NCBI GenBank assembly: GCA_030549335.1
Contig: CM060188.1
Span: forward strand, 69,470,696-69,534,695
Source of the DNA: Pontederia crassipes
Taxonomy: Eukaryota > Streptophyta > Magnoliopsida > Commelinales > Pontederiaceae
Length of the DNA: 64,000 bases
Direction: 5' to 3'
This document shows positions 19,000-63,700 of this stretch, one piece after another. The number at the start of each line of letters is the position of its first letter. Position 1 is the first letter of the stretch. A program made the translations under genes and the position numbers. The notes under the pieces were generated by a model. It was not told the origin of the DNA, searched no databases, and worked only from the letters and a program-made list of their open reading frames with translations.

Positions 19000-19317
19000 T
19001 CTAAATTTTAACTAAAGTATTTCCCCCAAAAGTTAATACAATCCTTTTGGCTAATTGAAAAAAATGTTTTAACAAGAAATCTAATTATTTAACACATGAA
19101 AAATAGGAAAAAGTATTTTTTTTTCTCCTAAAACATAATAAATGCATTTTTTCCCACGTAGTTTTGTGCAATGGTTGGGTTCCTCTTCCTGCCATCTCCC
19201 TTTTCCCGCCTCTTTCTTTATAAGAAAATCCATCTCATCTTGCCAATCGAATTCCTCTCCCGCTTTCGTTCCAGGAACCCTAAAAAAATTTTCCAAAACG
19301 ACATAGGGAAGCCAAAA
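19000..19317 (+). promoter_or_regulatory. Displaced copy of the RAD21 promoter and 5' leader
   Basis: These 318 bases match 29342-29658, immediately upstream of the RAD21 gene, with 7 substitutions and 3 single-base homopolymer length changes. The copy includes a TATA-like TTTATAAG (19217-19224; 29558-29565 in the original) and leader sequence, but stops about 57 bases short of the RAD21 start codon. Identity ends sharply on both sides. It is followed here by unrelated GC-rich DNA. Confidence 0.85.
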
Positions 19318-20079: not shown

Positions 20080-20555
20080 TTGTGCGCAGAGAAAGAGAGA
20101 GAGGGAGGGAGGGAGAGAGAGAGAGAGAGAGAGGGGTGGGTGATCCTTAAACAAGGCAGGGGGTGGCGAGACGGTGGGATCAGAAAAGGAGACGTACCCT
20201 TGGTTTTGAGGTACGTCTGCCAAATTCCTGATCTCAAATATTTAGTGTATAATCTCTCGACGAGGTTATTTGTTATTTATGTTTCATGATATTTGTTATT
20301 GAACATTATCATGATCCGGACATTATTGCTTTGGTGGCTCAAGCATGTGGTATGAGGCGAAAACCCATCCACAACCCCCGTGACCCAACTGCTCAGAAGG
20401 TCTGCAACCCCCGCAACCCAATTCCTCGAAGGATGTGCGCGTCCAACTTCAGGGGGCGGCCTCTGGGCTTGTGATCTCAGAAGGATGATTTATGCCCTCC
20501 TTAGAAAATTGGGGTCTCATAGAGGGAGGGAGGGAGGGAGAGAGGGAGGGAGAGA

Positions 20556-20601
<46 letters not shown>

Positions 20602-21016
20602 TGATCCTTAAACAAGGCAGGGGGTGGCGAGACGGTGGGATCAGAAAAGGAGACGTACCCTTGGTTTTGAGGTACGTCTGCCAAATTCCTGATCTCGAAT
20701 ATTTAGTGTATAATCTCTCGACGAGGTTATTTGTTATTCATGTTTCATGATATTTGTTATTGAACATTATCATGATCCGGACATTATTGCTTTGGTGGCT
20801 CAAGCATGTGGTATGAGGCGAAAACCCATCCGCAACCCCCGTGACCCAACTGCTCAGAAGGTCCGCAACCCCCGCAACCCAATTCCTCGAAGGATGTGCG
20901 CGTCCAACTTCAGGGGGCGGCCTCTGGGCTTGTGATCTCAGAAGGATGATTTATGCCCTCCTTAGAAAATTGGGGTCTCATAGAGGGAGGGAGGGAGGGA
21001 GAGAGGGAGGGAGAGA

Positions 21017-21060
<44 letters not shown>

Positions 21061-21873
21061 TGATCCTTAAACAAGGCAGGGGGTGGCGAGACGGTGGGAT
21101 CAGAAAAGGAGACGTAGCTTGGTTTTGAGGTACGTCTGCCAAATTCCTGATCTCGAATATTTAGTGTATAATCTCTCGACGAGGTTATTTGTTATTCATG
21201 TTTCATGATATTTGTTATTGAACATTATCATGATCCGGACATTATTGCTTTGGTGGCTCAAGCATGTGGTATGAGGCGAAAACCCATCCGCAACCCCCGT
21301 GACCCAACTGCTCAGAAGGTCCGCAACCCCCGCAACCCAATTCCTCGAAGGATGTGCGCGTCCAACTTCAGGGGGCGGCCTCTGGGCTTGTGATCTCAGA
21401 AGGATGATTTATGCCCTCCTTAGAAAATTGGGGTCTCATAGAGGGAGGGAGGGAGGGAGAGAGGGAGGGAGAGAGATGGAGAGAGAGAGAGAGAGAGGTG
21501 GGTGATCCTTAAACAAGGCAGGGGGTGGCGAGACGGTGGGATCAGAAAAGGAGACGTACCCTTGGTTTTGAGGTACGTCTGCCAAATTCCTGATCTCGAA
21601 TATTTAGTGTATAATCTCTCGACGAGGTTATTTGTTATTCATGTTTCATGATATTTGTTATTGAACATTATCATGATCCGGACATTATTGCTTTGGTGGC
21701 TCAAGCATGTGGTATGAGGCGAAAACCCATCTGCAACCCCCGTGACCCAACTGCTCAGAAGGTCCGCAACCCAATTCCTCAAAGAGTGTGCGCCGTCCAA
21801 CTTCAGGGGGCGGCCTCTGGGCTTGTGATCTCAGAAGGATGATTTATGCCCTCCTTAAAAAATTGGGGTCTCA
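20080..21873. repeat. About 455-bp tandem repeat array, nearly 4 copies, with GA microsatellites
   Basis: Units can be aligned on GGTGGGTGATCCTTAAACAA at about 20135, 20596, 21055 and 21497, giving periods of 461, 459 and 442 bases. Each unit holds a stem-forming GACGTACC / GGTACGTC pair 11 bases apart, about 240 bases of unique sequence, and a GGGA/GA purine run of variable length. Unit-to-unit identity is very high; the third has lost part of the left stem arm. The open frames in each unit (for example 20286-20474) resemble no protein I know and I do not call them genes. Confidence 0.93.
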
Positions 21874-22194
21874 TATTATGGGATGACCTGTGCAGGCACT
21901 TCTCAATTGTTTTGAATGCTTGGGATGACCGGTGTGGGCTCTTGTGATATGTTTTGAATGCCTATTTTTGTCTAGTGTGGGTTGCAAGTGCATTGTCGTT
22001 CTACACTGCATGGAATCAGGGGCCATCTTTGATATATTGTGGCGTCTTAGAGTGGTGTTTTTGCTATCTTTTTGTTCATGGCCTGGAAGTTTATTGGCCT
22101 TTCTATCAAATATTTTGTAATCTCTACTATTATTAATGGAACTCTTGGATGACTACCTTCTTGCTAGTCATCCTTTCTCGTTTCAAAAAAAAAC
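21874..22194 (+). mobile_element. Probable LINE 3' end remnant
   Basis: This segment ends GGATGACTACC, TAGTCATCCTTTCTCGTTTC and a poly(A) run at 22185-22193. The LINE fragment ending at about 23.94 kb has a very similar end (GGATGATAACC, GTCATCCTTCCTTTTCTC, poly(A)). No coding part is preserved. It is unclear how much of the upstream array belongs to it. Confidence 0.45.
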
Positions 22195-28015: not shown

Positions 28016-29341
28016 GCATCACCAAAAAAAAATTAGTGTCACGTAATTTTTTTAATCTCTTCTCCTTTCACCGTTATTATTTAAATTATTATCTTTATCC
28101 CACTAATTTATTACGCATACGTGACATTCGACACTTTCTTTATTAATTTATATTATTGAAAATCTAACGTCGTTTATAAATAGCAAACTTTATTACATTG
28201 ACATTTTTTTTTAAAATGCAACAAAACAAAAAATTACGAATTTTTTATAACTTAAGTGATTAATTTAAAAGTACAAAATTACATTAAACTTGTACATACA
28301 TCAAAATAACAGTAATGTTTTCTTCATTTCATAAAAATCACAAGTCCACTTTTTTCTCACAAGTTCCAAGCCTTTTAATATGTAATCATTATTAAACTTG
28401 CTAAAATTTGAATGAGCATTATTTTTTTTTTCTCTTGATGCTATAATCATTGTCCAACTTTACTTAACACAACTTATTAATAAGGTCGAGTTTCATGTGA
28501 TTCGATGGATACTAATAGTCTCGGGAACAATGTCATTATTTTACTCGGGAGAATATTATTTGTTTTTTCACTTTAACTTCAAATTAATCAAATGTTAATA
28601 ATTTTAAGAATGGATAATTCTAGGGTATTAAAAAACTTAGAAATTAAATAAATGATACATAAGACTCCAAATTCTTTTTATCTTTTGAATATCCCGTATA
28701 AAAAAGATAGTATTTACCTATAATTTTAATTTATCAAATTAATATGAACTGTAGAATAAAGTTTGTTATTACTAATAACTTCCAATGGATGAGGGAAAAT
28801 ATATAATGGATCATTGATAACTTATCATGGTTGACCTCTAAATCCGATCAAAATGTATGTGAATTGCATATTTCATTAGGCCAATATATTTTGAGAAGGA
28901 TATTCTTTACACCTGATATATTGATTTTTTTTCTTAAATTAGTACAATAAGATGAACATGTAATCCATTAATAACTCCAATACAATCTTGAGAATTAATT
29001 ATTAGCAAAAAATTCATGAATGTTTTAAGATATTAATAATAATAGTAATCTAATAAAAATATTTAACAATGTCAACGTTAAATTGAGACTTATATATTGT
29101 GTCACAGCATATTTTATCATGTGCATCTTTAAATTCTTCGTTAATTGGTGTTTATTTTATATTAGTAGTCATGTGAAGATTTTTTTTTTCAAAAACTTAG
29201 CAAATAAGAACTTCCCTAACTTCTTCTCAGTAAAAATATTTTTCTAAACTCATTATAAAGAACTCTTTATTAATTGTAAACATGATAAAACATCACTTAC
29301 AATGATATTTCATCTCCTATTATAATCATGCTCTACTCATG
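28016..29341. other. AT-rich spacer between the UBA-like locus and RAD21
   Basis: It probably contains divergent promoters near its two ends. I see no repeats, frames or elements in 28.1-29.3 kb. Confidence 0.5.
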
Positions 29342-29714
29342 TCTAAATTTTAACTAAAGTATTTCCCCCAAAAGTTAATACAATCCTTTTGGCTAATTGA
29401 AAAAATGTTTTAACAAGAAATCTAATTATTTAACACACGAAAAATAGGAAAAAGTATTTTTTTTCTCCTAAAACATAATAAATGCATTTTTTTCCCACGT
29501 AGTTTTGTGCAATGGTTGGGTTCCTCTTCCCGCCATCTCCCTTTTCCCGCCTCTTTCTTTATAAGAAAATCCATCTCATCTTGCCAATCGAATTCCTCTC
29601 CTGTTTTCGTTCCAGGAACCCTAAAAAAATTTCCCAAAACTACAGAGGGAAGCCAAAACTTTGAGCGAGAACCGAGTAGAGGAGAAGAGCACCCACGGCG
29701 CGTAGGACTGGAAG
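29342..29714 (+). promoter_or_regulatory. RAD21 promoter and 5' leader (source of the 19-kb copy)
   Basis: The region has a TATA-like TTTATAAG at 29558-29565, then a pyrimidine-rich leader and AGGAACCCTAAAAAAAT, an AAACCCTAA/telo-box-like motif common upstream of plant cell-proliferation and ribosomal genes. The first 317 bases recur at 19000-19317. Confidence 0.6.
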
Positions 29715-36335: not shown

Positions 36336-37963
36336 CTAATTACAAACCTCTTCGGCGAATCCAATCCTAGATGTCATGGTGTCATACACTATTCTCTGAT
36401 TCTTCTGCTGGTAGTTCCCAATGATCCCCTGTTGATCTTCATACTGGAGGCTGGCGACGGCCAGGCACGCCTGAGAAGCATCCTTCTTGACGAAGTAGAA
36501 GATCCCTGTGACGTCCACGGTGATCTCGGCGCCGCCCTCGAACGCCATCTTCAGGGTGGGCACCTTGACCTCTTGGTAGCTCGACAGATCGAAGCAGGTG
36601 TCCAGTATGGAGAAGCTCGGCGCCGGCGGGTACCCTTCGAACTGCTTCACGAACTCGGCCTTCAGGGCCTTGTACACCGACGGCACGAGCCTCGTTATGA
36701 CGGTCCCGGAATCGATCAGAATCCTGCCGCTCGAGAACCCCGCGGCCTGGAGGGCCACGCCGCCCACGCTCATGCCGGTGAGGTTGAGGAAATAGAACGG
36801 CGCTTGGTCGGGGACGGTGATCATTCTGGTGTACGCGAGAGGGCTGGTGATCTTGTAGAGACTGGGATCGTCTCCCAGGACCAAAGAACCCGACGAGTTG
36901 AGCGCGCGCGCCGGCAGGCAGTAGGAGAACACGCCGCTGAACTGGGCGGTGGTTTGAGACACCAGTGACAGCTGAGTCCTCCCAAGCCCCATGAGGCCGG
37001 ATGTCCCGCCGAAGAGGCCGTGGTTGCTCCGGCCGCAGCCGAAGACGAAGTTATCCACCACGACGCCGCCGAGATCGATGCTCTCTCGTGCTAGGACGCC
37101 GCGGGTGTAGGAGCCGTCGCCGTAGCTGAGGGCGTAGTTGCAGCTGGACTTGTCCAGGCCGCAAGTGCCAGTGTTGCCCGTGGCCGGCTGGAGGGAGCTG
37201 CATTCGGTGGAGGAGCAAGGGACGGCTTGGTACGAAGGCGAGGCCGACGGGTCGAACATGGGCTCCTGCTGGCTGTAGCAGAAGAAGCACGGCTTGCACT
37301 GGACCCACGTCAAGTCGCTGCCGGTGTCGACGATGACCGTCATGTTCTTGCCGCCGACGGCGATGGTCGTTATGTAGTTCAGCGTCTGGAGCTTGATCCC
37401 GGACGTGAGGGGCACTTGGGCCGCGGCCGAGTTCTTGGGGACCTTCTTGGACACCGCCGCGCGTTTGATCCTGGCGTGGATGGACGAGACTCGACCATCG
37501 TCGGAGGTCAGGACGTCCTTGGCCGTCCTGGACGGCCACGGCATGCGAGGGTGGTGCTTCAGTTCTAACATCACAGCACCATTTCCTCTCCCTGTTTGAT
37601 GCGATGACATCAACAACGTTAACTACGTAAGAGGTCAAGACTCTACCATTCTCCATTAACGTTGCAAATATACTCGCAGAAGGACACGGTACATAAATCC
37701 AAAACACAGCAGTACATGGCAGCGGCGATCTGAAGCTTACTTGACCTCTGAGCGGGAGCAATTAATCGACCGGTAGCACTCTTCTCGCCCCACTGCAACT
37801 TATCTGTGCTCAGGGCTAACGTCCTCTCTTCAAGGCAATTCACAGGACGGCCGAGCCCCGCGGCGACCACGATCAGCAGGGGAACAAGAAGCTGCAGATG
37901 GCCGGAGAAGAACACGGAGCAGCGCTTAGGAGTCGGAACGCATCTCGCCGGCGATCCCTCCAT
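36336..37963 (-). CDS. Secreted nepenthesin-type aspartic protease (family A1)
   Basis: Pepsin-like endopeptidase acting outside the cell or in the vacuole. Two exons, 37963-37741 and 37591-36336, join in phase (TCA A / GG) to 492 residues. Residues 20-40 (LQLLVPLLIVVAAGLG) are a signal-peptide core, followed by a prosegment to about 140 with the plant phrase LELKHHPRMPW. The catalytic aspartates are Asp163 in VIVDTGSDLTWVQC and Asp368 in ILIDSGTVITRL; the flap tyrosine is in ALSYGDGSYTRG. The Cys-rich nepenthesin insert follows the first motif (CKPCFFCY, VPCSSTEC, CGLDKSSC). The C-terminus IGNYQQKNQRIVYD and IGFAEEVC are typical of the CND41/CDR1-like plant group. Length fits. Both exons are very GC-rich. 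Substrate unknown. The start is the first ATG giving a signal peptide. Confidence 0.93.
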
Positions 37964-39259
37964 GGCACGGCGCCGGAGAGCTGATGAGGGAAAGAGCCAA
38001 GCGGCTGAGTCAGGAATGGGCTGCAAGGGAGAGCAAGGGAACAACGAGCTGGCCGCATATGGTGGCCAGGTCTCTCTAAAGTCTTGGGTTTTGTGGAGCT
38101 TCTGGGGAAAGAGAACAAAGGAGGGTGCGCTGGATCTTTGGAGGCACTCGCGGCACTGGAAAATTATTGGAGGGATCACGGGCGCACCTCAAACTTCGAT
38201 CTGCTGGCTGCTTCTTTTGTTTGGAGGGGGGGAGGAGGTGGAGGAGGAGGTCCTCCTCCTGCGTCGTTGTCTTGGTTCTATTTATGTCGTTGGTGCATGC
38301 GCTCGGCGCGCCCCGTGAGGTGCATGCATGCTGCGGCCGCGCACGCACGGGCATAGGAGCATCTGCTCGTCATGTATGCAAGCACAACATGAAGGATCCA
38401 AAGTATATAGCGAGCTCGTGTCCCAGTTTTCTGAGTCAACAATTTGATTGGAGTATATTATTTTAATCGTGCTCGTGTCGTTGACTAAAACGAAGATACT
38501 GCTCACAATGCCCCCTAGAGATTTCAGCTTCTTTTGTTTACGTGATTGGATTTAAAAAAAAAAAGCTCAAAGTTCAAATCTTATTGATCCAAGAATATTT
38601 GAACTTTGAGACCTTTTGAGTGTTATTTCTCCTGGCAAATTCTAATGAAACCTTGTATGAGTCTAGTTCATGAAAATATAATGAAATCAGGATATATCCT
38701 ATAGGTTTAATTTCACCATGAGAGAGGAGAGATAACATTGATTTTAAGTGTAATCCTCCTTCTCTAACAATCTTATGGGAGATTTGGCTCTTTTGGTGAA
38801 GAGATCATGGATGAAAAAAAAAAATCTAAAGCTGCGCCAAAAGTATACTAGTTTATTGTGCAATGCCACCACTTCAACTAAGTTAAACTAAGTTATTTTA
38901 GGGAAATAAATATATTCAAATGAATTTGTGATCACTGACCAATCCAATAATCAATCTTCTAACGATCAAATAATATAACAAGAAAAGTGAACCATCATCT
39001 TAATCGATGAATTAAGTTGAAGAATGATGTACGTATGGAATGTATTTAAGGATGAAAGCATATCCACCTTGTTCAAACTTCAATGTTATTCCATCACGTA
39101 CATCCTTTGAAATTTTCACTAGCCACAACACTCTAAAAACTATTATATCTATTTTTTTGAATTTTAGAATAACCATAAAAAATAAATAAATAAAACTTGG
39201 ATGGGAGGGAAGGCAAGCGCCGAAGAAAGTCCAGGATGGGATCAACTAACACTCTAAAA
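37964..39259. other. Upstream region of the aspartic protease and spacer
   Basis: The first 400 bases are GC-rich and should contain the promoter and leader of the minus-strand protease, with a GGA/GGT-rich purine run at 38225-38265. The rest is AT-rich with nothing recognised. Confidence 0.45.
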
Positions 39260-39480
39260 ACCATTACATTTATTCATGATGACAGTCGCCTTCTCGTGAA
39301 GATTGTTCGCCTCCGCCTTCTGCTTGATACGGAACTCTGCCACATAAGAGCTTTTTGGCAACGTCCCATGGTGGGACCGCGGTCGTCGATGCCGCCAAGG
39401 CTTCAGCTGTCTCAAAAATGACTTCTTGGCCGAAAGTTTTAATCGACCACAAAATCCCTGAGGCGTGGGTCACTCTTCGA
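39260..39480 (-). other. Coding-like segment downstream of the exon-like array
   Basis: On the minus strand an open stretch reads ILWSIKTFGQEVIFETAEAL and then VPPWDVAKKLLCGRVPYQ, with a balanced composition unlike the neighbouring repeats. No family is recognised. Its position and strand fit a 3' part of the same gene-like unit as the array, but no splice model is secure. Confidence 0.3.
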
Positions 39481-39587
39481 CAAAAGAAATAATGTAAATA
39501 AGGCATCAGCAAAAGAAAGAATGTAAAGAGGCATCGACAAAAAAATAAAAGAGAAGAGAAAAAATAAGGAAAGAAAGTCTTACGATT

Positions 39588-42500
39588 CTTCTTCATCTTC
39601 CTTCCCTGCGGTTACCTCCAACGCAACCCCGACTATGCCTCATGCTTGGATTTCTACCATTTTGGTTAAAGCTTCTGCCCGTCCAAGTGCACGACGCGCC
39701 CTGGAAAAGTTTGGAGTCGGATGAGGGCAAAAGAAAAAATGTAAAGAACCATCGAGGCAAGAAAAAAAAGAAAAAAGAAAGAAAAAGGAAGAAAATCTTA
39801 CATTCTTTTTCGTTTCCCTACGGTCAACTCCAATGCGACCCCGGCTATGCCCCATTCTTGGATTTCTACCATTTTGGTCAAAGTTTCTGCCCGTCCAAGT
39901 GCATGACGCGCACTGGAAAAGTTTGGAGGCGGATGAGGGCAAAAGAAAAAATGTAAAAAAGCATCGAGGCAAGAAAAAAAGAAAAAAAAAAGAAAATCTT
40001 ACATTCTTTTTCCTTCCCTACTGTCAGCTCCAACACGACCCCGGCTATGACCCATCCTTGGATTTCTACCATTTTGGTCAAAGCTTCTGCCGTCCAAGTG
40101 CACGAGGCACCCTGGAAAAGTTTGTAGGGGGATGAGGGCAAAAGAAAAAATGTAAAGAACCATCTGAGGCAAGAAAAAAAGACAAAAAAAGAAAAAAAAA
40201 GAAAATCTTACATTCTTTTTCCTTTCCTATGGTCAACTCCAACGTGGCCCTGGCTATGCCCCATTCTTGGCTTTCTACCATTTTGGTCAAAACTTCTGCC
40301 CATCCAAGTGCACGACGCACCTTGGAAAAGTTTGGAGGCGGATGAGGGCAAAAGAAAAATATGTAAAGAACCATCGAGGCAAGAAAAAAAAGAGAACAAG
40401 GAAAAAAAGAAAGAAAATCTTACATTCTTTTTCCTTCCCTACGGTCAACTCCAACGCGACCCCGGCCATTCTTGGATTTCTACCATTTTGGTCAAAGCTT
40501 CTGCCCGTCCAAGTGCACGACGCGCCTTGGAAAAGTTTGGAGGCGAATGAGGGCAAAAGAAAAAAATGTAAAGAACCACCGAGGCAAGAAAAAAAGGAGA
40601 AAAAATAAAGAAAAAAAGAAAGAAAATCTTACATTCTTTTTCCTTCCCTACGGTCAACTCCAACGCGACCCCGGCTATGCCCCATTCTTGGATTTCTACC
40701 ATTTTGGTCAAAGCTTCTGCCCGTCCAAGTGCACGTCGCCCTAGAAAAGTTTGGAGGCGGATGAGGGCAAAAGAAAAAATGTAAAGAACCATCGAGACAA
40801 GAAAAAAAAAAGAGAAAAAAGAAAAAAAAAATCTTACATTCTTTTTCCTTCTCTACGGTCAACTCCAACGCGACCCCGACTATGCCCCATTTTTGGATTT
40901 CTACCATTTTGGTCAAAGCTTCTGCCCATCCAAGTGCACGACGTGCCCTAAAAAAGTTTGGAGGCGGATGAGGACAAAAGAAAAAATGTAAAGAACCATC
41001 GAGACAAGAAAAAAAAAAGAGAAAAAAGAAAACAGAAAGAAAATCTTACATTCTTTTTTCTTCCCTATGGTTAACTCCAACGTGACCCCGGCTATGCCCC
41101 ATTTTTGAATTTCTACCATTTGGGTCAAAGCTTCTTCCCGTCCAAGTGCACGACACGCCCTGAAAAAGTTTGGAGGCGGATGAGGGCAAAAGAAAAAATG
41201 TAAATAACCATGGATGTAATGATATATAATTTTATCTTAAGAAATTAAACTAAAAATATTCATTAAGTTAATTGTTATCTTATTGTGAGATAAATGGTCT
41301 AGTGATTAAAATTATGACAAGGAGCCAATTATATCAGGCATAAATATGAAGTACTAACATAATCGAGGTTACTTGATGTAATTAATAGTTAAATAACCTA
41401 TTATTATGTTTATTGTAATTGAAAATATAATGCGTTATTTTTTCAGTGGGTACTAGCTAAAGAACAAAATCAAAATAGTTAAATAAATCAAGTTAAATAG
41501 AAATTAATAAATGGTTAATTTAATTATTTGTCAAGTCTGCTTCCCCCACTATATGCAAATAAATTATAATTGCATTTTTTTTAACCATGTACGCCTGATA
41601 CATGACACCTTGGATCTTGCCTCTCAAACCAACCCCAGCAGCCCTCCACCTCATCCTCTAATTTCTCCCCTTGATGACACCTCATGCTTTCTAAGTTCAG
41701 GCAAATCAAACAGCTAAGGTGCTTTAGTCACCCTTTTATCCATCTTTGGCGGTTGCAGATGGGGACGATGACAACAAAAAAAAAAAGAGAGAGGAAATAA
41801 ATCTTGCTGGCCGAGTGAGGAGAGAAAAGAAAAAAAAATGAAAGGAGCTCCTGTTGGTCTCTGATCGAGTTAGGGGAGATAGAAGAGAATGGGAGGAGAG
41901 GAGACTTAGAGGAAAAAGAAAAAAAAAAGAGAAGAAGTTAACGAATTAAAGGTACGTAAGAGTTGGATCTAATTAATATTTGTTGATAATATTCATAATG
42001 TAGACTTCTGCATGTTTAGAGTAAAATCCATCTTTATCAACGGATTGAATTGATAGGAGAAATTTTACTATTTGTTAGAAACATGAAACCTATTAAAGAA
42101 ACATACTACGTTTCAATTGTTTCAATTTAAAATGTAGAAGCCGAATGTTGAGTTGATTTACAAAATATTGTATTGTGATTCAAATTTTCTGAAAGTTGGA
42201 TCACATGATAACTTAGAAGTATATAAGAGAATAAAGGATAATCATCAAATCTTATGTATTTAAAAAGTAATATGTAATTTGATAAGCATAGATCTTGTTG
42301 CCTCACAGAATTAGTAGAGTGGATTCCGGCTCATGCTATAAATAATATGCCTAGAATTAAAATATAAAATTTACATAACTTATAGCCAGCTGAGCGAGAG
42401 TTCTAATGCAAGTGTTGAGTTATTCCAAAATAATTTGCTGAGGGAGATTTGAGATGAATAAGTGGTACATCTTGAGTTCTAGAAGTGTGAATAAACTAAT

Positions 42501-45430
42501 GTGATGTCTGTGAACACGAACATTTTTGTACATAAATTATGATGAGTACAACTTGGTAATTAATATATGTTGCACTTATGATGCCTAGTTTTGTCAAATT
42601 TTGAAATTAAGTTAATCAGATGTCTGTAGACAACAAAAATTGCTATCCAATTTTATAAATCAGATATTAAATCAAATATGACATGAAATTATTTGATGAT
42701 TTAGAAAGAGATAGATATTGATGTTAGGATTCAATTACAATTGAAATTAATTGAAAAATATATGTCTAATTAAAGTTATAAAGGATTAACCGAGTCCTCT
42801 GAATCTGTCATAAGAAAACTTAGAGCAGATTATGTTGACACTTGTGAAATTTGTTGTACTCTTTTCAGAAGGATATAAGAAAAAAAAAGAATTAAAAATT
42901 TTATAAGTTACACCTCTAAAAGTTACGTCTATGGAAATTGGAAATTATTAGAAAAAATGAGTTGTGTACTAATTGCTAAAAATAATAAAAGTACGGTTAC
43001 TCAATCTGTCAACATGAAACTTAGGGTGAACGATGATTTTCCTTAGAAACAAGTCTAATGGAATATGGAGTGAAGTAAATTGGAATCATTACGTTTTATT
43101 ATTTATATTCAAAGTTATGATATTTCTTAACTAGGTGGACAAATTGAATTGATTGAGCTAGATGGATTGTGTAAATCATATAAAATTTCTATGCTGGTAT
43201 GATTGTAAGAGTAATATGGGCTTATAATATTGTTATAGGGTTAGATGAATGATAACAAAAAAAAGAGGAAATACTAATCGCTTATGTCAGGTAAGTTGGT
43301 TTCTCCTACTCTATATTTTCACCTCTTTTGAATTTGGTGTGACATCGATTGTTATATGTATTAAATATATTTTGGATAGATTATGAATTGATTTCAAGAA
43401 ATGCAACTATGAAAAGTATATATGAATGATTGTATGATTGCACATTTGAAAAGCATATGTGATATGATATGAATGGATTATGAGAAGTGCAATCTTATTT
43501 CGTTTGAAATGATTGATCGAGTGATGATACAATTGAAAAGCATATGTGGCATGTTAAGGATTGGTTTAATAAAATACAATCCTATTCCGTTTGAATCGAT
43601 GTTCGACATTATTCATCTTCTGATATTTGAATTACAAAATATGGTTAATCTTTTGATCTTTGATATGAAGTTGTTATATGATGAATCATGCATCTGCATC
43701 TGCCTGTATCTGCATATGTGATAGTTGGAGCTAAGTGCTACATCGCTGATTATGATGGGAGCCACATCTAGAGTCCAATCCATTATTCTGTTCCCCAATA
43801 ATGAGATGAGATAGGCTGGAGCTAAGTGCCATGCGGAGCTAAGTGCCACATCGTGAGTAGTCGCGATGGGAGGCCACCTCTAGAATCCGTAGGGGCCACC
43901 TCTAGAGTCCACCTATCGCTATATGATTTGTTCCCCGAAAGGGATGAGGTATAATGGAACTAAGTGCTACATCGCTGATCATGATGGGAGCCACCTCTAG
44001 AGTTCACCTACCGACCACTGGCCAGTTGGTGATCCGTGCATTCATATGAGAGTGTTGCATTTGCATACATCTGTTTGATATGATTTGAATGATATTGATG
44101 CAATTTGAGTGTGATGATTTTGATTAGGATATTGTATATATTATTTTCAAATATATGAAAACATCCATTGCGTTACTATAATTATTTCATATCTTTGCAT
44201 GTCACTCCGAATTAATTAGATGGTAACACATAGTTTATGAGTTATCAACTTACTGAACTATTTTAGCTCACTCTGTTGTTTCTAACATTTTTTAGATCAT
44301 TATAGCTTCTTGGATCGTGCGAGGTCATAATCTTAGCATAGTTTAGCTCATCTGATGTAAAGGTATTGAGGGAAGTTGTTACTCTCGTGTCCTTTTGTTA
44401 GGACGTCAAGAGACTTTGATATGTGTATTATATATGTGTCATTCTGTAAGAATGTAAAGTAATTTTGTGAAATGTGAAACTTAGGGTAGATGATTTGCTC
44501 TGAAATGATCATCATAAATTCGTGTAATTTATTTAATGATATATTTTTATTTCTTTTGTTTTTAAAAAGAAAATATTTACGTCACATTTTCGCAATCTCT
44601 CTCAATTTTATTTGATCGTCCATAATGAGTCGCGAACTCCAGTTTAAATTATGGTTTAAATCGGGGTCGTGACAATCGAGGCAAGAAAAAGGAGAAAAAA
44701 GAAAAAAAGAAAGAAAATCTTACATTCTTTTTCCTTCCATAAGGTCAACTCCAACGCGACCCCAGCTATGCCCCACTTCTGCCCTTCCAAGTGCACGACA
44801 CACCTTAGAAAGTTTGGAGGCAGATGAGGGCGAAAGAAAAAAATGTAAAGAACCATCGAGGCAAGAAAAAAAAAATAAAATCTTACATTCTTTTTCCTTC
44901 CGGTTAACTCCAATGTGAAAATCTTACATTCTTTTTCCTTCCGGTTAACTCCAATGTGACCCCGGCTATGCCCCATTTTTGGATTTCTACCATTTTGGTC
45001 AAAGCTTCTGCCCGTCCAAGTGCACGACCCGCCTTGGAAAAGTTTGGAGGCGGATGAGGGGAAAAGAAAAAATTGTAAAGAACCGTCGAGGCAAGAAAAA
45101 AAAGAAAGAAAAAAAGTTCCCTACGGTCAACTCCAACGCGACCCCGGCTATGCCCCATTCTTGGATTTCTACCATTTTGGTCAAAGCTTCTGCCCGTCCA
45201 AGTGCACGACACGCCATGGAAAAGTTTGGAGGTGGATAAGGGCAAAAGAAAAAATGTAAAGAACCATGGAGGCAAGAGAAAAAAGAAAAAAAAGAAAATC
45301 TTACATATTTTTTCTTTCCCTACGGTCAACTCCAATGCGACCCCGGCTATGCCCCATTCTTGGATTTCTACCATTTTGGTCAAAGTTTTCCCGTCCAAGT
45401 GCACAACGCGCCCTGGAAAAGTTTGGAGGC
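39588..45430 (-). repeat. Tandem array of about 12 units of roughly 200 bp, each with an exon-like core
   Basis: Eight units lie at 39588-41214 and about four (some shortened) at 44675-45430; a 3.46-kb LTR insertion separates them. The best landmark is TTCTACCATTTTGGTCAAAG, near 39652, 39869, 40066, 40276, 40477, 40696, 40898, 41112, 44986, 45167 and 45365. Read on the minus strand, each unit has a pyrimidine tract ending CTTTTCCAG, then a core of about 110 bases encoding ALGRAEALTKMVEIQEWGI and VALELTVGKEKE, then a GTAAG donor and a poly-purine/pyrimidine stretch. About four cores remain fully open in the same frame; others are damaged. This looks like amplification of one exon plus intron of an unknown coiled-coil gene or element. 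Confidence 0.9.
41210..44679. mobile_element. Probable solo LTR of a Ty3-type retrotransposon inside the tandem array
   Basis: The insert 41215-44674 begins TGTAATGATA and ends GGGGTCGTGACA (TG...CA). It is flanked by ATGGA (41210-41214) and ATCGA (44675-44679), a 5-bp duplication with one change, and it interrupts a repeat unit between CCAT and CGAGG. At 43.7-44.0 kb it holds short internal repeats of GGAGCTAAGTGC and GCCACCTCTAGAG type. No gag, pol or second LTR is seen in 3.46 kb. Long LTRs with such internal repeats are known in the Tekay/Del lineage; that assignment is inference. It is a fossil left by LTR recombination, younger than the array. Confidence 0.65.
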
Positions 45431-45850
45431 GGATGAGTCGCCTTCAACCCTCGAATGGCTGCTTTAGCCCTGGCCGTGCAGCAAATGACTTCCAGGCAGT
45501 CCGCTTTCACGGCTTTGGCGGCACGATTGGTCGCCGCCTTCGCTCCCTCGGTCGCGGTAGGCATGGCGGCACGATTGGTCGCCGCCTTCGCTCCCTCGAT
45601 CGCTCTCTCGGTCGCGGTAGGCGTAGCCGGTGTGCCGTCGACGACCACGGGCACACTCTTTCGCCATCTTCTTGGCTTTGAAGGTGGCATCCATGTTCAT
45701 CAATTTGCTCTTTTGCTTCCACCGTGGCTCATTGCGCCGCCTGTGCTCTACCAAGGGCTTCATCGAGGGCTCGTCGCTCGTGGGCTAAAAGCCTTTCACG
45801 GGCCGAGAGTGGTTGAATTCTGGGCATTTTGGTTTCTATATTATTTTTAA
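45431..45850 (-). other. Ala/Arg-rich coiled-coil-like coding remnant upstream of the array
   Basis: On the minus strand this GC-rich stretch reads, in more than one frame, RERLLAHERRALDEALGRAQ and ERAIEGAKAATNRAA; the latter phrase is doubled by a local duplication of about 50 bases. It runs directly into the first array unit. Helix-forming Ala/Glu/Lys/Arg text of this kind is common in plant transposon-associated coiled-coil proteins. No specific family is recognised and it is not intact. Confidence 0.4.
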
Positions 45851-48800
45851 TTCGTGATTACTTTACTATTTACAAGGGCGGGCCATGCATTGTGGACTAA
45901 CAAAATTATATTTTTATAATTTCTTAATGATAGCTTTATCTGATCTTGGTCTTGTTATATGAAATCAAATGTGTTATCAATAATATAAAATTTTGAGTCA
46001 TAAAGACTTAACATAATTTTTTTATTTCCAAACTAACATAAAATCTCATTATTCGTACACATAAAATCTTATAAGTAAATTATAATTAAATTTATTATAT
46101 CTACAATATAAAAAAATTATAAATGGCATATATTAGTTTTTCCATATGTAGATATATTAAGGCACATGATCCATATTTGAAATCTTGGCCTAAAAAATAT
46201 GGATATTAAAATTATTAGAAAAATAAATAAAAGAACTAATGAAACAAATGCTTGCATCTTCTAGAATTAAAATAATATCTTAAATTATATTTCTAATAAA
46301 CTAACATAATGAAGAAAATGTAAATGTGCTAATTATTTTGGTTATTATTATTTATCATATCTATATCATTCTCCAATAAATATAGTGAAATTTTTAAATA
46401 ATAATAATAGTGTTAATTCAATATGTTATTTTTTTATATTTTCAACACAAACGTATCCACCAGCTTATGTGGTTTGAGAAATATTTTATATGGTAATTAA
46501 AATTATTTAGTAAATTAATTATTTAAAAATAATTGCAATAACTTAGAACTATGCTTTAATTTTGTAGTAGACTCCTTTTTTTTTCTTGATTGCTACTCTC
46601 TCTCTCTTTCTTGATTGCTTTGTTCTGTTTTTATCCATATAAACTCTCCTATTGTAACCCCTAATGTTGTGCGCTATAATTTGCTCAATCATCATTTTAG
46701 GAGGTTTCTTGCACGAGAAACTTAAAATTTTTTCTTCTTTTCAATCAATGTCAGACGAGAGAAACTTAAAAGAATTGAGTCAATAGTAAGTTGCAATCAA
46801 TGTCTTTTTTTCTTTCACTTTCTTTTTATTTCATCTGAAATTACTAAGTAACTTCTCAATTAGTGTTAAATTATGATTTTAATTAATTCATTTTAACCTT
46901 GAAATATAATTAGTTTACCTAACGTTTCCTTATTCTAATTTATCACAATAAAAAGATCTTAATTGAAGTTTTTAAGATTCTTATATTTAAATTTATAAAT
47001 AAATTCTGAAAATAATTACTTTTTAGTTTCATTAAAATTATTTATTTTACTTTTGTTATAATACTAAAATATAATTAGTTTCTATATTTGTTTTATGTAA
47101 TGTTTCCTTATTCTCAATGATTTTTTTATTAAATTTATAAAATATTAATTATAATTTTTGTTATCTAGTTTATAATCTTTTTTCATATTCGAGATTGATT
47201 AATATTATTTTCTTATTTATCAAAAAATTTCAAAAAAAAACTTTTTTGGCTATTTGAGTTTGATTAGAATTATTGCCTTTAATTTCTTATTGTAATAAGT
47301 CAATTATCTTAATGAACATGAAATTTTAATTTATTATCTTAATTTCTTATTTGAATTTTTTATTATGATTTTGGCATAGTTTGGGGGTTTTAACTTTGTA
47401 TTTATGATCTGATTTTTTTAGTATAATGAAGAAAATATCACATATCACGATATTCTAATATGATACAAAATATAATATATCTATATTAGATAGTTAGATT
47501 ATATAGTTATTTTTTCATGATTATTTTTTGCAATCACAATTTTTAATAATTTATTCATTTATAATTAATATTTGAAGGACACCTTTCATCAAATACTTAT
47601 GTTGCAAGACCACAAGACCACCTACTAGAGGAAACGTCAACTTCTCCTTTCACACTATCCTATTCGTGGGGTCAAACTAATTTTGTAACCAATTCTCATA
47701 ATTATTAATTAGTCAATAAATAAATTAATTACAATTAGTTTTACTCGTTTAGGATATTAGTTTAACTTGTGTCTTGAATGTGCTAAAGTGTCACTATCTT
47801 CTACACACTCCGCACATATGTGAATGCATATTATTCCGAATTTTATTTTTAAATAAATACATTTTTTTAAAAGAATAGTGTCAAGGAAATTATTAGAGCG
47901 TATAAAATTTTATTTAGTTCATGTTAAAATTTAAGTTTATAATTAACGAAGGAGTTTTATTTTGTTGTTTTTATCTCAAGCATTATTGACAACGTTTTTA
48001 CTCAATTCATTTATTGATTAAAAATATAGGTACTAGCAAGTCTTTTGGAAATTATTGTGTATCATGTGTCATTACCACCATCTCATAAATTTTTTTATTT
48101 TCAATTATAAATTTTAAAATGACAAAAAATTGTTCATGAAAGTCATAACTTTAAATATTATTAGAACATGATATGATAACGTGTAAAGCCCCCAAATCAA
48201 ACCCCGCCATGTGACAAAAATTCAACCCGGGGACGATACTGATTATGCAATGAAGTTGACCAATAACTTGACTTTGACTACTTTCTTGACTAAATAAAAT
48301 AAGTGCGAAAGACTTAAATAATAAAAGCAGAATGATCAAGGAGTAGTGGAATCCGACAGTAGGTCAAAATAAGAAGCATCAGGTGTGGATGATACATATA
48401 CGATGCTTGAGATCATAAAAAAAATAAAAGACAATGTGATACAATAAAAATAGCCAAGGACCACCCCATGTGCATATCATCATCATTAGCAAGAATTGTC
48501 GCTATGGCTCATCCTTCCATAACTTGTTTTCCTGCAGAATTTTTTTAGGAGAAACGATATCTCACGAGCTTTGTAGCCCAGTAAGAGAATAATAAACCAA
48601 TGGATTAATTAAATCAACGGCAGATAAGCTTGATCATAATATGAGAATGGCAATTTAACTTTGAATTCATCGATGAGAGGAGATAATAGTAACAAATCAT
48701 ATAATAATGGAAGAATCAATGGATCATTGTGGTACTCTGATTGTACATGAGAGAAGAAATCAATGGAATGCTCTTATCTATGTTTCACTTTCAATGCTTT

Positions 48801-51989: not shown

Positions 51990-53074
51990 TTGTAGTGGAA
52001 ACATTTTTTTTTTGCCTGTAATTCAAATTTTGATTATATATGAGCATTCGATTTTATAATAAGTGATGGCTGGCCCGATGCACAGATGATGCAAAAAAGT
52101 AAATATTACTTTGATACTATAAAATTATTTAAATAAAGTAGATAAATAATTTATAAAAATTTGCAAAGAAAAGTTAACACTTTGGCATGAAGATGTGTTG
52201 ACAAGTGTTCTTAAAATATTACTTATAAAAAATTGTAGTAGTAAACACTTATGATTTTGAAATATGATAATTATATATGCAGTTATAATAACTATATGAC
52301 TTTTCTATGTACACGGTTATATAGTAACTATAATTTATAATAATATAATATAATATAAAATCTATCCATATGATAATCATTAAAAAAATATATAACAAAA
52401 CTTTTGCATGAACTTACATGTTGGAAAAATACAATTATTAAAAATATTTAATAAAATATTAATAAATATTTTACAAGTGTGAATCACATTAAAATTTTCT
52501 TTTCTTTTACAAGTGTCCTGAGGTATTATTACAAATTGAAAATGTTAAACATTTATTATTATAAAATTTGATAATTATATAATAACTATAATATTTTATA
52601 ATGGGAACTTATGATATATTATATGACATAAACTTTTTCATCATAATATAATATAATATAATATAATATAATGTCTACTTTAATCACAAATTCATAGATT
52701 TATAATATAATTACTCAATATAAATTTATGATATGTCAAAAAGTTATAGCATATAATATAATATATTTTCAAAATTAATTTTGATCCATGCACACATTCA
52801 CGTCTTTGCAACTTCATAGTATACCACCACATAGAGTATGAACAGTTATTGAAGTAGCGGATGATAATAATTTAATTAAAATTTATCATCCTTCTAAATA
52901 ATTAAAATTAAAATAATATAACTAATTAAAATGTCAATATATCATAATTTTTAATGGGCGATCAGTAATTGTAAAATATTGCATTATAAATATGTCCTCG
53001 CAAACTTTTAGACGAGTCATCCACCTGCCCCTATCTCTCTCCCATAATTTTCTCTACGCGACACACCCACCCAT

Positions 53075-53105
<31 letters not shown>

Positions 53106-55311
53106 ACACACACACACTCTCTCTCTCTCATTGTTGTTATAATTAGTTTATTTTTACTATTTTATGTTCAATGATATTTGGACTTATTGAAATAATGGTG
53201 TAGAATTACTCGCCGGATGTTTGCTATTTCAATTTTGTTTCTCCTTTAAATTAATTGTCATTATTATATTCCATCATACATACAAGTTCATTAATTTATA
53301 TATATATATATATATATCTGATATTTCTTAATTAAAAATAATATTTGTATGGACACTTGTCAATACTCTTTATGCCAAGTGTCATTACCTCCATGCAAAT
53401 TTTTTTGCTTTAATATAGTACTAGTATGGAGTCCACACGATGTGCGAATGTTATAAAAATAAATGTGCATCTTCTTTAATTATAATTTTATATATTCTTT
53501 ATTTATAAGTCTAGAAAATAATTGATTTTTAAATATATATGTCTATATTTCTTAATTTTAACTTCAATTGTCTCACTTTATAATGATTAATTCGTTAAAA
53601 TAGCACATAGAATAAAGTCTTGTACAATAAATAACTCAATACAAAAATAGAAGAAGTCCCTATATATATATATATATATATATAACTTATAAAATGATAA
53701 TCTTTATTCTCTCATGCCATTTTTTCACTCAAACCCCTCTTAGAATATTTGTCTTCAAGACAAGCTAATATATATAGGTGATGTCAACCATAAAACACAA
53801 TTTTAACACAATGACATAACCAAGTGCATAATATTAACTTTCAAAATAATTAACATACATATTTAAAGATTATTAACTTAATTTTAACATGCACATTAAT
53901 TAGGTTAAAAATATAAATAAGATCACAATGAAAACAATGGATTAAAAGTAAATTTCAAACATGTGTCATGTGCAATGCGCATATACAGAAATCTAATCTA
54001 ATCAAGTTTTATTTATTTTTTATGACAAAATATAGACTATGCTTTTGTATTTCTAGAAATACTCTAGAAAATAAACGTATAAAGAATATTCATTTTGTAA
54101 CAATTAAAGTAATTTATAACTTTAAATTTTTAAATAATAAAAAAATTCTAACATTTTAACATTAATCTATTAACATTTTAGAGTTAAATTAATCTTGTGC
54201 ATTCATATTAGAAACTTGTAGTGGAAACATTTTTTTTTGCCTGTAATTCAAATTTTGATTATATATGAGCATTCGATTTTATAATAAGTGATGGCTGGCC
54301 CGATGCACAGATGATGCAAAAAAGTAAATATTACTTTGATACTATAAAATTATTTAAATAAAGTAGATAAATAATTTATAAAAATTTGCAAAGAAAAGTT
54401 AACACTTTGGCATGAAGATGTGTTGACAAGTGTTCTTAAAATATTACTTATAAAAAATTGTAGTAGTAAACACTTATGATTTTGAAATATGATAATTATA
54501 TATGCAGTTATAATAACTATATGACTTTTCTATGTACACGGTTATATAGTAACTATAATTTATAATAATATAATATAATATAAAATCTATCCATATGATA
54601 ATCATTAAAAAAATATATAACAAAACTTTTGCATGAACTTACATGTTGGAAAAATACAATTATTAAAAATATTTAATAAAATATTAATAAATATTTTACA
54701 AGTGTGAATCACATTAAAATTTTCTTTTCTTTTACAAGTGTCCTGAGGTATTATTACAAATTGAAAATGTTAAACATTTATTATTATAAAATTTGATAAT
54801 TATATAATAACTATAATATTTTATAATGGGAACTTATGATATATTATATGACATAAACTTTTTCATCATAATATAATATAATATAATATAATATAATATA
54901 ATGTCTACTTTAATCACAAATTCATAGATTTATAATATAATTACTCAATATAAATTTATGATATGTCAAAAAGTTATAGCATATAATATAATATATTTTC
55001 AAAATTAATTTTGATCCATGCACACATTCACGTCTTTGCAACTTCATAGTATACCACCACATAGAGTATGAACAGTTATTGAAGTAGCGGATGATAATAA
55101 TTTAATTAAAATTTATCATCCTTCTAAATAATTAAAATTAAAATAATATAACTAATTAAAATGTCAATATATCATAATTTTTAATGGGCGATCAGTAATT
55201 GTAAAATATTGCATTATAAATATGTCCTCGCAAACTTTTAGACGAGTCATCCACCTGCCCCTATCTCTCTCCCACAATTTTCTCTACGCGACACACCCAC
55301 CCATCCCCCCC

Positions 55312-55342
<31 letters not shown>

Positions 55343-56445
55343 ACTCTCTCTCTCTCATTGTTGTTATAATTAGTTTATTTTTACTATTTTATGTTCAATG
55401 ATATTTGGACTTATTGAAATAATGGTGTAGAATTACTCGCCGGATGTTTGCTATTTCAATTTTGTTTCTCCTTTAAATTAATTGTCATTATTATATTCCA
55501 TCATACATACAAGTTCATTAATTTATATATATATATATATATATATATCTGATATTTCTTAATTAAAAATAATATTTGTATGGACACTTGTCAATACTCT
55601 TTATGCCAAGTGTCATTACCTCCATGCAAATTTTTTTGCTTTAATATAGTACTAGTATGGAGTCCACACGATGTGCGAATGTTATAAAAATAAATGTGCA
55701 TCTTCTTTAATTATAATTTTATATATTCTTTATTTATAAGTCTAGAAAATAATTGATTTTTAAATATATATGTCTATATTTCTTAATTTTAACTTCAATT
55801 GTCTCACTTTATAATGATTAATTCGTTAAAATAGCACATAGAATAAAGTCTTGTACAATAAATAACTCAATACAAAAATAGAAGAAGTCCCTATATATAT
55901 ATATATATATATAACTTATAAAATGATAATCTTTATTCTCTCATGCCATTTTTTCACTCAAACCCCTCTTAGAATATTTGTCTTCAAGACAAGCTAATAT
56001 ATATAGGTGATGTCAACCATAAAACACAATTTTAACACAATGACATAACCAAGTGCATAATATTAACTTTCAAAATAATTAACATACATATTTAAAGATT
56101 ATTAACTTAATTTTAACATGCACATTAATTAGGTTAAAAATATAAATAAGATCACAATGAAAACAATGGATTAAAAGTAAATTTCAAACATGTGTCATGT
56201 GCAATGCGCATATACAGAAATCTAATCTAATCAAGTTTTATTTATTTTTTATGACAAAATATAGACTATGCTTTTGTATTTCTAGAAATACTCTAGAAAA
56301 TAAACGTATAAAGAATATTCATTTTGTAACAATTAAAGTAATTTATAACTTTAAATTTTTAAATAATAAAAAAATTCTAACATTTTAACATTAATCTATT
56401 AACATTTTAGAGTTAAATTAATCTTGTGCATTCATATTAGAAACT
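51990..56445. repeat. 2.23-kb direct tandem duplication
   Basis: 51990-54215 and 54216-56445 are nearly identical head to tail. Differences I see are almost all in simple repeats: the poly(C) run (about 53078-53105 and 55305-55328), adjacent CA and TC runs, TA runs near 53.30, 53.66, 55.53 and 55.89 kb, and an ATAAT run near 52.65 and 54.87 kb. All three boundaries share TTG, that is, a 3-base microhomology. The unit is AT-rich and carries no supported gene; the small frames at 53968 and 56197 are the same non-conserved sequence. Confidence 0.95.
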
Positions 56446-60415: not shown

Positions 60416-60726
60416 TGTTAATAATGCCTTGAATATGAACCTAGTTAGTGCCCCTACATAGTCAGGCGCTTCAGCAGAATTCTCCTACGGGCGCTTCAGC
60501 AGAATTCCCCTACGGGTGTCCTATTTTTAGAGGATTTATTTAGAGTCCCAATCCGTATGTAATTCCTAACATCTGTCAAAGGGAGTGTCTATATAAACTC
60601 CCTAGGGGTCTAAACAGAGACCCATCCTTGTAATTATCGTTATTCCATAACAAAGAGCCATTGTCGTTTTTCCTCTTCGCGTTCTTCTGTATTTCGTGCG
60701 ATCCCTCTCTTCCTCTTTTCGTAACA
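60416..60726 (+). repeat. 5' LTR of the Ty1-copia element
   Basis: The limits are set by the TGTTA and TAACA ends and by the primer-binding site four bases downstream. An alternative start at 60398 (also TGTTAA) is possible. An internal doublet GGGCGCTTCAGCAGAATTC-like occurs near 60466-60510. Confidence 0.65.
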
Positions 60727-63700
60727 AACTGGTATCAGAGCCTTAGGGTTTGTCAGCGATTCTCGATCAGCAGGGAGATGGCATCGCACAACGTGAGCGT
60801 GGAGAAGTTCAACGGCAGGAACAGTTTCGGGTTGTGGCAGATCAAGATGCGGGCGCTTTTGAAGCAACAAGGAGTCTGGACGCCGCTTTCAAACGTGTCG
60901 AAGAACAAGCCAAATGAGGAAGACTCGAATGACAAAGAAAAGGAGATCGACCTCGCAACTTTGGTGGCACAGGAGGAGAAGGTGCACTCGATGATTCTGT
61001 TGTGTCTGGTGGATGAGGTGATAATCGAGGTCGCAGATGAAGAAAATGCGGCCGGTATGTGGTTGAGACTCGAGAGTTTATATATGACGAAGTATCTCAC
61101 CAACAAGTTGTTGTTGAAGCAACGTCTGTTCTCTCTCCGCATGCAGGAAGGTACCCCTCTGAAGGAACATCTTGATCAATTAAATTCTTTGTTGATGGAA
61201 CTCAGAAATATCGATGTTAAGATCGATGATGAAGATGCTGCCCTAATTCTGTTAGTTTTGCTTCCTCCATCATATGAGAACTTCGTTCAGTCTATGATTA
61301 TCGGGAAGGAAACTATAAGTCTGGAAGAAGTAAGATCGAGTCTCCATACTCGTGAACTTCGGCATAGGGCATCTGGAAATTCTGCAGAGACTCAAGCCGC
61401 GGGTTTGATATCGACCGCAGAGAAGGGACAGTCCTCGAATTCGAAGAAATCCAAATCCAAGAAGAAGAAAATCACTGCGAAGGACATATGTAATTACTGC
61501 AAGGAACCAGATCATTGGAAGAAAGACTGTCCGAAGAAGAAGAAGGTCCCCGTCGCTGTGGTGGCACATGAAACAGAGAATTCTGAAGATGATTTGGTTC
61601 TGGCTGCTTCTGATCAAGAATGTCTGGAGGATAGTTGGGTTCTGGATTCGGGGTGTTCCTATCACATGACTCCGAATAAAGATTGGTTCTCATCTTATCA
61701 GAAGACTGACGGTGGAAATGTCCTCATGGGCAATAACGCGTCATGTCAGATAGTTGAAATCGGTTCTGTGCAGATCAGGACTCATGACAATCTTGTGAGG
61801 ACGTTGACAGATGTCTGTCATGTTCCGCAACTGAAAAAGAATTTGATATCACTTGGAGTCCTCGACTCTAAAGGGTGTCAGATCAATGCTGCTGGAGGCA
61901 TCCTCACGGTCATGAAGGGTGATGCTACGGTTCTGAAGGGAGTCAGACAGAAGTCCTTGTATGTATTACAAGGCAAGACATTCTCTGACGTTGCTGCAGT
62001 GGCTAGTTCATCCGAATCAGATAGGTCCAGGCTGTGGCACATGCGGCTTGGGCATATGAGTCAGAACGGGATGAATATCCTCAGCAAACGAGTTCTTCTA
62101 TGAGAGAAGAAGATATCTGAAATCAACTTCTGCAAGCACTGCGTATTCGGCAAACAGCGAAGGTCTCAGTTTGGCAAGGCAGTGCACAGGACGAAGGCGA
62201 CACTTGACTACATCCACGCCGATTGTTGGGGTCCCTCTCGTGTTCCAACATTAGGAGGTGCGAGGTACTTCCTATCTGTGATTGATGACTACTCGATGAT
62301 GACTTGGGTATTCATGATGAAACACAAGAGTGAGTCCTTCAAGGCTTTCAAGCAGTGGAAGGTTCTGGTGGAAAATCAGACGTCGAAGAAAGTGAAGCAT
62401 CTTCGTATTGACAATGGTTTGGAAATTCAGTTCTATTAACATAACTTGCTATTTGGTGAATCGAAGTCCGATGACTGCGATTGATCTCAAGACTCCAACT
62501 GAGGTATGGTCAGAAAATCCTGCTGATTATACTTGTCTGAAAGTTTTTTGTTGTCCAGCATACTATCACGTCAGTGAAGGGAAGTTGGAGCCAAGGGCCA
62601 AAGAAGGGGTGTTCATGGGATATGGTGCAGGAGTGAAGGACTACAGAATCTGGTCTCCTTCAGAACACAAAGTCATCCACAGTAGAAGCGTGACCTTTGA
62701 TGAAGCATCAATGCTTCAGTTGAAGGTGGAGGCTGAAGAGAGTGTCAGTAAACATATGGATGTTGAAATCACTCCAACTGAGGATGATGCTGAAGGATCA
62801 CTTCAAGAAGCAGAACCAGAAGGTGAAGAATCTGATGAGCAACCTGAAGAGGAATCAATTGCTGCTAGATGTCCTCGCAGAGAAGTGGGTCCTCCTAAGC
62901 GATATGGTTTCGAGGACATAGTTGCTTATGCACTACAGGTAGCTAAAGAGATGGAGTCCCTAGAGCCATCCTCTTATAGGGATGCCATCATATGTGTCGA
63001 ATCTGAACAGTGGATCGCTGCTATGGGTGAGGAGATGGAATCTCTTCACAAGAATCAAACGTGGGAGCTGGTCAAGTTGCCTAAAGGCAGGAAGGTTGTT
63101 GGCTGTAAATGGATCTTCAAGAAAAAAGCAGGAATTCCAGTAGTTGAAGGCACGAGATACAAAGCACGACTTGTTGCTAAAGGTTATAGTCAGAAAGAAG
63201 GTGTGGACTACAATGAGATATTCTCACATGTTGTCAGACATACTTCTATCAGGGTGCTACTTGCTCTTGTAGTACATCAGAATCTAGAGCTCGAGCAACT
63301 AGATGTGAAGATTGCTTTCCTTCATGAAGAACTTGAAGAAGATATTCTTATGAGCCAACGAGAGGAATTCTTCATTCCAGGAAAGGAGAATCAAGTTTGC
63401 AGTCTGAAAAATCTTTGTATGGCTTGAAACAGTCTCCCAGACAATGGTACAAGAGGTTCGACAGCTTCATGATCATTAAGGGATTCAGTCGAAGCCCCTA
63501 TGATTACTGTGTATATCACAAGAAGGTGAAGGACGGCTCCACCATCTATCTGCTCTTGTATGTTGATGATATGCTTATTGCTGCCAGAGATATGACAGAC
63601 ATTTAGAATCTGAAGAAGCTCCTCAGTGCAGAATTCGATATGAAGGATCTTGGTGCAGCACAGAAAATTCTGGGGATGGAAATTCTAAGGGATCGCACAC

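Follow-up and report, generated by a model that had tools for sequence, protein, structure and literature searches.

The minus strand of a 64,000-nucleotide stretch of the Pontederia crassipes genome (C6:69470696-69534695 in a 1.13-Gb, 43-contig genome, hereafter the window) bears between 39.5 and 45.43 kb a tandem array whose units resemble a series of exons, each with a pyrimidine tract and AG before a short core and a GTAAG after it. We propose, with a probability of about four in five, that this array arose by tandem expansion, within a decaying gene, of a segment made up of the end of one exon and the start of the intron following it, whereas the units had originally been predicted to be complete amplified exons.

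The array consists of 12 head-to-tail units in two groups, eight of them (u05-u12) at 39509..41209 and four (u01-u04) at 44675..45430. Thus, the minus-strand array of about 12 units in the original prediction is real; over half of its interval, 39588..45430, is non-array DNA, owing to a 3460-bp insert that went unmentioned. The units as cut are 145-230 bp long (197-214 bp in 8 of the 12, mostly about 210 bp), and Tandem Repeats Finder reports a period of 212 with 8.1 copies (score 2437) and one of 182 with 2.6 copies (score 698). Two units are irregular: u03 has an internal tandem duplication of 41 bp, while u04 is interrupted by the inserted element and has a 29-bp deletion in its core. The alignment reveals a constant order within the unit, namely CCTCCAAACTTTTCCAG, a 108-nt core translating as ARRALGRAEALTKMVEIQEWGIAGVALELTVGKEKE, TGTAAGATTTTC, a T/C tract that varies in length, and TTGCCTCGATGGTTCTTTACATTTTTTCTTTTGCCCTCATCCG. 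The splice-like signals were also correctly noticed, in that 11 of the 12 units have an AG in the acceptor-like position and also a GTAAG, u02 being without either. Likewise, the estimate of about four cores open in a shared frame agrees with our count of 4 of 12 (u02, u05, u06 and u09).

The insert between u04 and u05 (41215..44674, minus strand) is a dispersed TG...CA element. It is flanked by 5-bp copies with one mismatch between them, TCGAT (44675-44679) and TCCAT (41210-41214). Its first 775 bp gave 3429 first-look candidates genome-wide, and the 40 of these that were scored match at 83-100% over the main piece, the query itself being among them, alongside 18 further short pieces. The ends and flanking copies suggest that it is probably a solo long terminal repeat (LTR).

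Related sequences elsewhere in the genome

A genome search with the core peptide recovered at least 28 matches, all of them at the window locus or on C5, and among the matches listed these are the only two loci with arrays of this unit. The paralogous region on C5 (C5:2.444-2.451 Mb) matches window positions 47457-44672 and 41184-39272 at 87%. Its 17 units form two blocks, nine in A (the last one, A09, truncated) and eight in B, and the 2081 bp between the blocks contain the upstream flank. Within the blocks the units are spaced 181-219 bp apart, and the insert seen in the window is therefore absent between them. Beyond the array, many parts of window 13.7-39.2 kb match C5:2.4512-2.4548 and 2.4686-2.4875 Mb at about 85-98%, some of them twice and in rearranged order, pointing to a segmental or whole-genome duplication with later rearrangement.

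A more distant relative lies at C6:32.109-32.116 Mb (32109000-32116200). Here a unit of about 950-1000 bp contains parts of both neighboring exons of the gene from which the window units appear to derive (hereafter the parent gene) and is itself repeated, apparently as an independent amplification within the same gene family. Further pieces of the following exon are found on C4 and, inverted, on C5. Those at C4:8819067-8819398 are two facing fragments, and none of the listed core matches lies there. The five genome searches with parts of the parent gene each gave from at least 5 to at least 28 matches, and no intact copy of it was found among them, these counts being lower bounds.

The acceptor-like motif lies within an exon

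A remnant of the parent exon (45391..45806, minus strand) extends from upstream of u01 into it, and its open frame, ...KADCLEVICCTARAKAAIRGLKATHPPPNFSRARCALGR, passes uninterrupted through the acceptor-like TTTTCCAG of that unit. The unaltered window peptide spanning TTTTCCAG is matched at C5 with 75% identity and one TGA upstream of the motif, and at three places in the C6:32.11-Mb region with 44-50% identity and no stops (E 2.6e-6 to 0.0024). A composite query built out of several copies, whose identities to the window and C5 are inflated by construction, matches one C6:32.11-Mb copy over 87 residues (40%, E 3.7e-12). As the frame runs through TTTTCCAG both in u01 and in its relatives, the core would be the final portion of a longer exon, and with TTTTCCAG being exonic the pyrimidine tract before it would be a displaced intron start. 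Judged from these comparisons, a unit is not a whole exon but joins the last part of one exon to the T-rich beginning of the intron after it.

These observations bear directly on the original prediction that complete exons, once or still encoding a repeat protein, were amplified. It has in its favor that the core stands between an AG and a GTAAG in 19 of the 29 units at the two loci, that 16 of the 29 cores are open (one being the truncated A09), including 8 of 8 in C5 block B, and that u12 would yield a 117-nt frame-preserving cassette. A complete exon has an acceptor and a donor of its own; the acceptor-like motif here sits inside the parent exon at three loci. Moreover, where the distance from AG to GT is measurable (19 of 29 units) its commonest value is 110 (7 of 19), and in only 7 of 19 is it a multiple of 3, such that a frame-keeping exon length is not maintained from copy to copy. 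The GTAAG itself is missing from 6 of the 29 units, truncated A09 included. Together with synonymous change at the level of chance (see below), this leaves the amplification of complete exons very improbable. The anatomy of the DNA, by itself, is that of a duplication crossing an exon border, with the GT inherited and the AG exonic. Of exon plus intron amplification as predicted, we retain the exon and intron material in the unit and a GTAAG derived from a splice donor, but neither the complete exon nor a selected frame.

A probable inherited donor site

The exon at C5 closes with GAATC|GTAAGACTTTC, and 124 bp further an 85-codon frame, VTHALGILRSIKTFGQEVIFEAAEALAAS..., opens at TTTCTTTTTCCAG|AGTGACC; TC|A preserves the reading frame, which would make this a phase-2 intron. 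The C6:32.11-Mb copies show CATT|GTAAAAT at the donor places in 4 of the 5 printed, and AAG|AGTAAT (4 of 5) or AAG|AATAAT (the fifth) at the acceptor places. The junction TT|A likewise has phase 2 there, with a homologous exon after it. The window keeps the same arrangement after u12: the exon-derived part of this terminal unit (39584..39717, minus strand) still reads ...GKEDEEES(TC) before GTAAG, the putative intron remnant spans 109 bp (GTAAGACTTTC ... TCGAAG, 39475..39583, minus strand) with homologous stretches at C5 and C6:32.11 Mb, and homology marks a remnant of the following parent exon at 39272..39474 (minus strand), which begins VTHASGILWSIKTFGQEVIFETAEALAAS... and continues in another frame to ...SYVAEFRIKQKAEANNLHEKATVIMN. 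As an exon end, a short intron and a next exon in matching phase recur at the relatives, the GTAAG looks to be the inherited 5' splice site of a real phase-2 intron in what was presumably an expressed gene.

An alternative is that GTAAG was never a donor, its TAA being instead the stop codon of the parent, with the unit consisting of a coding 3' end and 3' untranslated DNA. The terminal units do read ...EEES-stop in frame, and the C6:32.11-Mb copies likewise read ...GNEETL-stop and ...GNEKAL-stop. However, the homologous frame resumes past a short T-rich gap in the C5, window, inverted C5 and C6:32.11-Mb copies; the join is marked by an AG, and two divergent loci share phase 2. Further, the ratio of nonsynonymous to synonymous rates (dN/dS) between parent copies is 0.51-0.77 for exon C (6 comparisons), which also speaks against this alternative; for exon B it is 0.50-0.98, plus one value of 2.61 on 2 synonymous changes (6 comparisons). 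We accordingly regard a parental stop at this place as improbable.

Divergence of the copies

All 29 units entered the substitution counts, which give 176 changes from the consensus in the core: 48 synonymous, 122 missense and 6 nonsense, against a chance expectation of 51.4 synonymous and 6.6 nonsense, and 64, 51 and 61 at codon positions 1, 2 and 3. In the window units alone, synonymous changes number 18 of 65 (15.6-19.4 expected) and nonsense changes one (2.3-3.2 expected). Hence, the differences noted as often keeping the amino acid do so no more than chance would give, and comparison of synonymous with non-synonymous change, as had been suggested, finds no excess of the former. Nine cores carry internal insertions or deletions (A05, A06, u01, u03, u04, u07, u08, u10 and u11; gaps at core ends are not counted here, so this list omits the end losses in A02, B02, B04 and u02 and the additional bases in u12 and B08), and in 8 of the 9 there is one whose length is not divisible by 3. 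Taken with the synonymous counts, these frame-breaking changes speak against the copies having kept a protein: purifying selection is not detected, and the pattern is that of neutral decay with frameshifts and stops.

The linker was said to drift freely relative to the core, and equal divergence of the two was named among the observations that would tell against the prediction. When positions are compared by base class in 25 of the 29 units (without u04, u12, A09 and B08, which are also left out of the 29-unit divergence means), changes per base in the core versus the alignable linker end are 55/397 versus 13/92 at CpG, 68/1032 versus 24/348 at other C/G, and 17/1215 versus 12/624 at A/T. Core and linker end thus diverge equally once base class is matched. 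The lower raw divergence of the linker end (core 0.091 versus 0.056 in 9 of the 12 window units, u02, u04 and u12 being left out of this second figure per region in the window comparison; 0.098 versus 0.085 in 25 of 29) was confounded by base composition and disappears on matching. Free drift is true of the T/C tract (mean pairwise divergence 0.255) and does not set the linker end apart from the core; the equality in question is found at that end and not in the tract.

In the window, C-to-T and G-to-A changes occur at 23 of 189 CpG versus 21 of 497 other C/G positions (p 0.0004), an excess of the kind that reflects cytosine methylation. The copies are without coding constraint and change like ordinary non-coding DNA, and the part of the original prediction that saw an uncharacterized coiled-coil gene or element "now partly decayed" is supported as regards the decay.

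Proposed origin and history of the array

The segment first duplicated would have run from within the exon (CTCATCCGCCTCCAAAC...) past the 3' end of that exon, across its 5' splice site and on into the pyrimidine-rich beginning of the intron (...CTTTTGC). The monomer join reads CTTTTGC-C-CTCATCC, that is, the right flank CTTTTGC, one extra base and the left flank CTCATCC, which suggests a head-to-tail doubling with hardly any homology, if any, where the copies met. By this event the T-rich start of the intron would have come to stand before the exonic TTTTCCAG, lending it an accidental likeness to an acceptor, while the real acceptor would remain beyond the last unit. Unequal crossing over or slippage then probably multiplied the monomer. 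Only the two terminal units u12 and B08 among the 29 keep GAATCGTAAG; they are 7 bp longer than the common form, and the single inverted C5 copy has GAATCGTAAG as well. The monomer that spread would be the one lacking these 7 bp, so that its donor phase no longer matches that of the parent.

In the unit tree, from which u04 and A09 were left out, the terminal units pair across the loci: u12 with B08 (support 0.998), and u01 with B01, the first unit of C5 block B (0.738). Given this pairing, the expansion probably preceded the regional duplication. The order we infer is duplication and spread of the monomer, regional duplication onto C5, decay with changes free of coding constraint and fastest at CpG, and insertion of the element in the window copy. 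Divergence increases weakly with the distance between units (Spearman 0.25, permutation p 0.038; p 0.17 for inner units).

Several points weigh against this account. The inner units are not clearly paired between the loci, and exchange between the loci could be an alternative source of the shared end units. Splicing of the parent as drawn is suggested by phase and homology, the GTAAG in the terminal units holds an in-frame TAA at which the parent exon might once have ended, and past coding of the parent is likely but weakly shown by dN/dS. The 12 donor bases are, unmatched, the most conserved of all (mean pairwise 0.039 versus 0.098 for the core), which would speak for a kept splice site; the excess vanishes when compared by base class (A/T 2/189 versus 17/1215, other C/G 4/64 versus 68/1032), a comparison of only 12 bases and little power. 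Finally, open cores make up 8 of 8 in C5 block B versus 8 of 21 among the remaining cores (Fisher p 0.003, a comparison picked post hoc). In one further reading the array would be a series of newborn introns and cassette exons: every added copy would have placed an inherited 5' splice site and pyrimidine tract ahead of an exonic AG, creating a potential intron, and some copies, such as those of block B, would still be spliced into transcripts with a repeat region of variable length. We consider this very improbable. Synonymous changes in block B (15 of 48) are near chance. Stop-free frames of 221 and 235 codons traverse the intron-derived linkers of this block (C5:2448486-2450130).

Identity of the parent and relation to known repeats

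Seven peptides matched no Pfam family at the cut-off, the weak matches to DUF4034 (E 0.054), HlyE (E 0.14) and TraM (E 1.1) being taken as chance. The core peptide found 0 matches up to E 10 among sequences of solved structures, and the whole window 0 matches in Rfam at gathering scores. Judged by Pfam and PDB sequences, the gene family is thus without assignment. In another alternative, the parent was an open reading frame (ORF) of a transposable element, and its coding end and untranslated DNA became a small satellite in the manner of the 3' untranslated region (3'UTR) repeats of Ogre. The dispersed and partly inverted fragments on C5, C4 and C6 are what such an origin might leave, and satellites from retroelement repeats are reported to be frequent in one plant (PMC7004042). 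Against it, no direct repeats of at least 60 bp that could be element ends flank the array anywhere in the window, shorter direct repeats not having been sought. The 23 inverted pairs of at least 16 bp in 38300-47500 are AT- or A/G-rich, and none is convincing as element ends, shorter or more diverged ends being liable to escape. The modest yield of the searches with parent parts and the lack of a Pfam family among the peptides argue in the same direction. A transposable-element parent is in our view unlikely, with somewhat more to be said for it than for the other alternatives.

Tandem repeats of gene fragments in pseudogenes are a general known kind of sequence, and the array, as head-to-tail copies of a recognizable gene segment with pieces of its parent at C5 and C6:32.11 Mb, belongs to this kind, the gene-derived tandem repeats. 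It shares with them the head-to-tail gene parts and the neutral change that is fastest at CpG. It differs in that its monomer straddles a 5' splice site and thereby acquires an accidental exon-like look. No array of this anatomy was found in the literature, within the titles and abstract openings of open-licence papers.

Closest in DNA anatomy is a potato gene in which an intron was gained by tandem duplication over the 3' border of an intron, the new intron being detected (PMC4974935). That case too involves a duplication over an exon-intron border that pairs an inherited splice signal with one taken from exonic sequence. There the 3' border was duplicated, whereas here it is the 5' border, in 12 and 17 copies, within a decayed gene and with DNA anatomy alone to compare. 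By analogy, and as DNA anatomy only, the array is a mirror image of the potato intron gain. The nearest alternative by likeness is the satellites that in plants derive from retroelement untranslated regions, exemplified by the tandem repeats in the 3'UTR of the Ogre LTR-retrotransposon (PMC7004042). These likewise form short arrays that arise when a weakly constrained segment close to coding sequence expands in tandem. In contrast to them, no retroelement structure was recognized around the present array, and its unit is arrayed at just the two loci among the matches listed.

More generally, a tandem array can mimic a series of exons whenever a 5' splice site is repeated together with a T-rich intron start, since any exonic AG then comes to lie behind a pyrimidine tract. 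Such mimicry is a trap for readers of sequence and for gene finders alike. If the copies were spliced, the array would offer an exceptionally rich example of introns born through duplication. On present evidence it is a decayed repeat whose history can be traced and which presumably has no function today.

Other features of the window

A block of about 2.2 kb is tandemly duplicated at 52005-56191, the compared pieces being 99-100% identical except for one short C-rich piece at 95%. A second tandem array at 20094-21875 has a 461-bp unit in 3.9 copies (96% matches) with AG-rich runs. Direct repeats with 96-99% identity at 18997-19317 and 29339-29658, 10.34 kb apart, are possibly the ends of an LTR element. 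Going by their translations, the minus-strand ORFs at 2964-8234 resemble an element of the long interspersed nuclear element (LINE) type, the plus-strand ORFs at 60661-63427 a copia-type polyprotein, and those at 36336-37616 (minus strand) an aspartyl protease.

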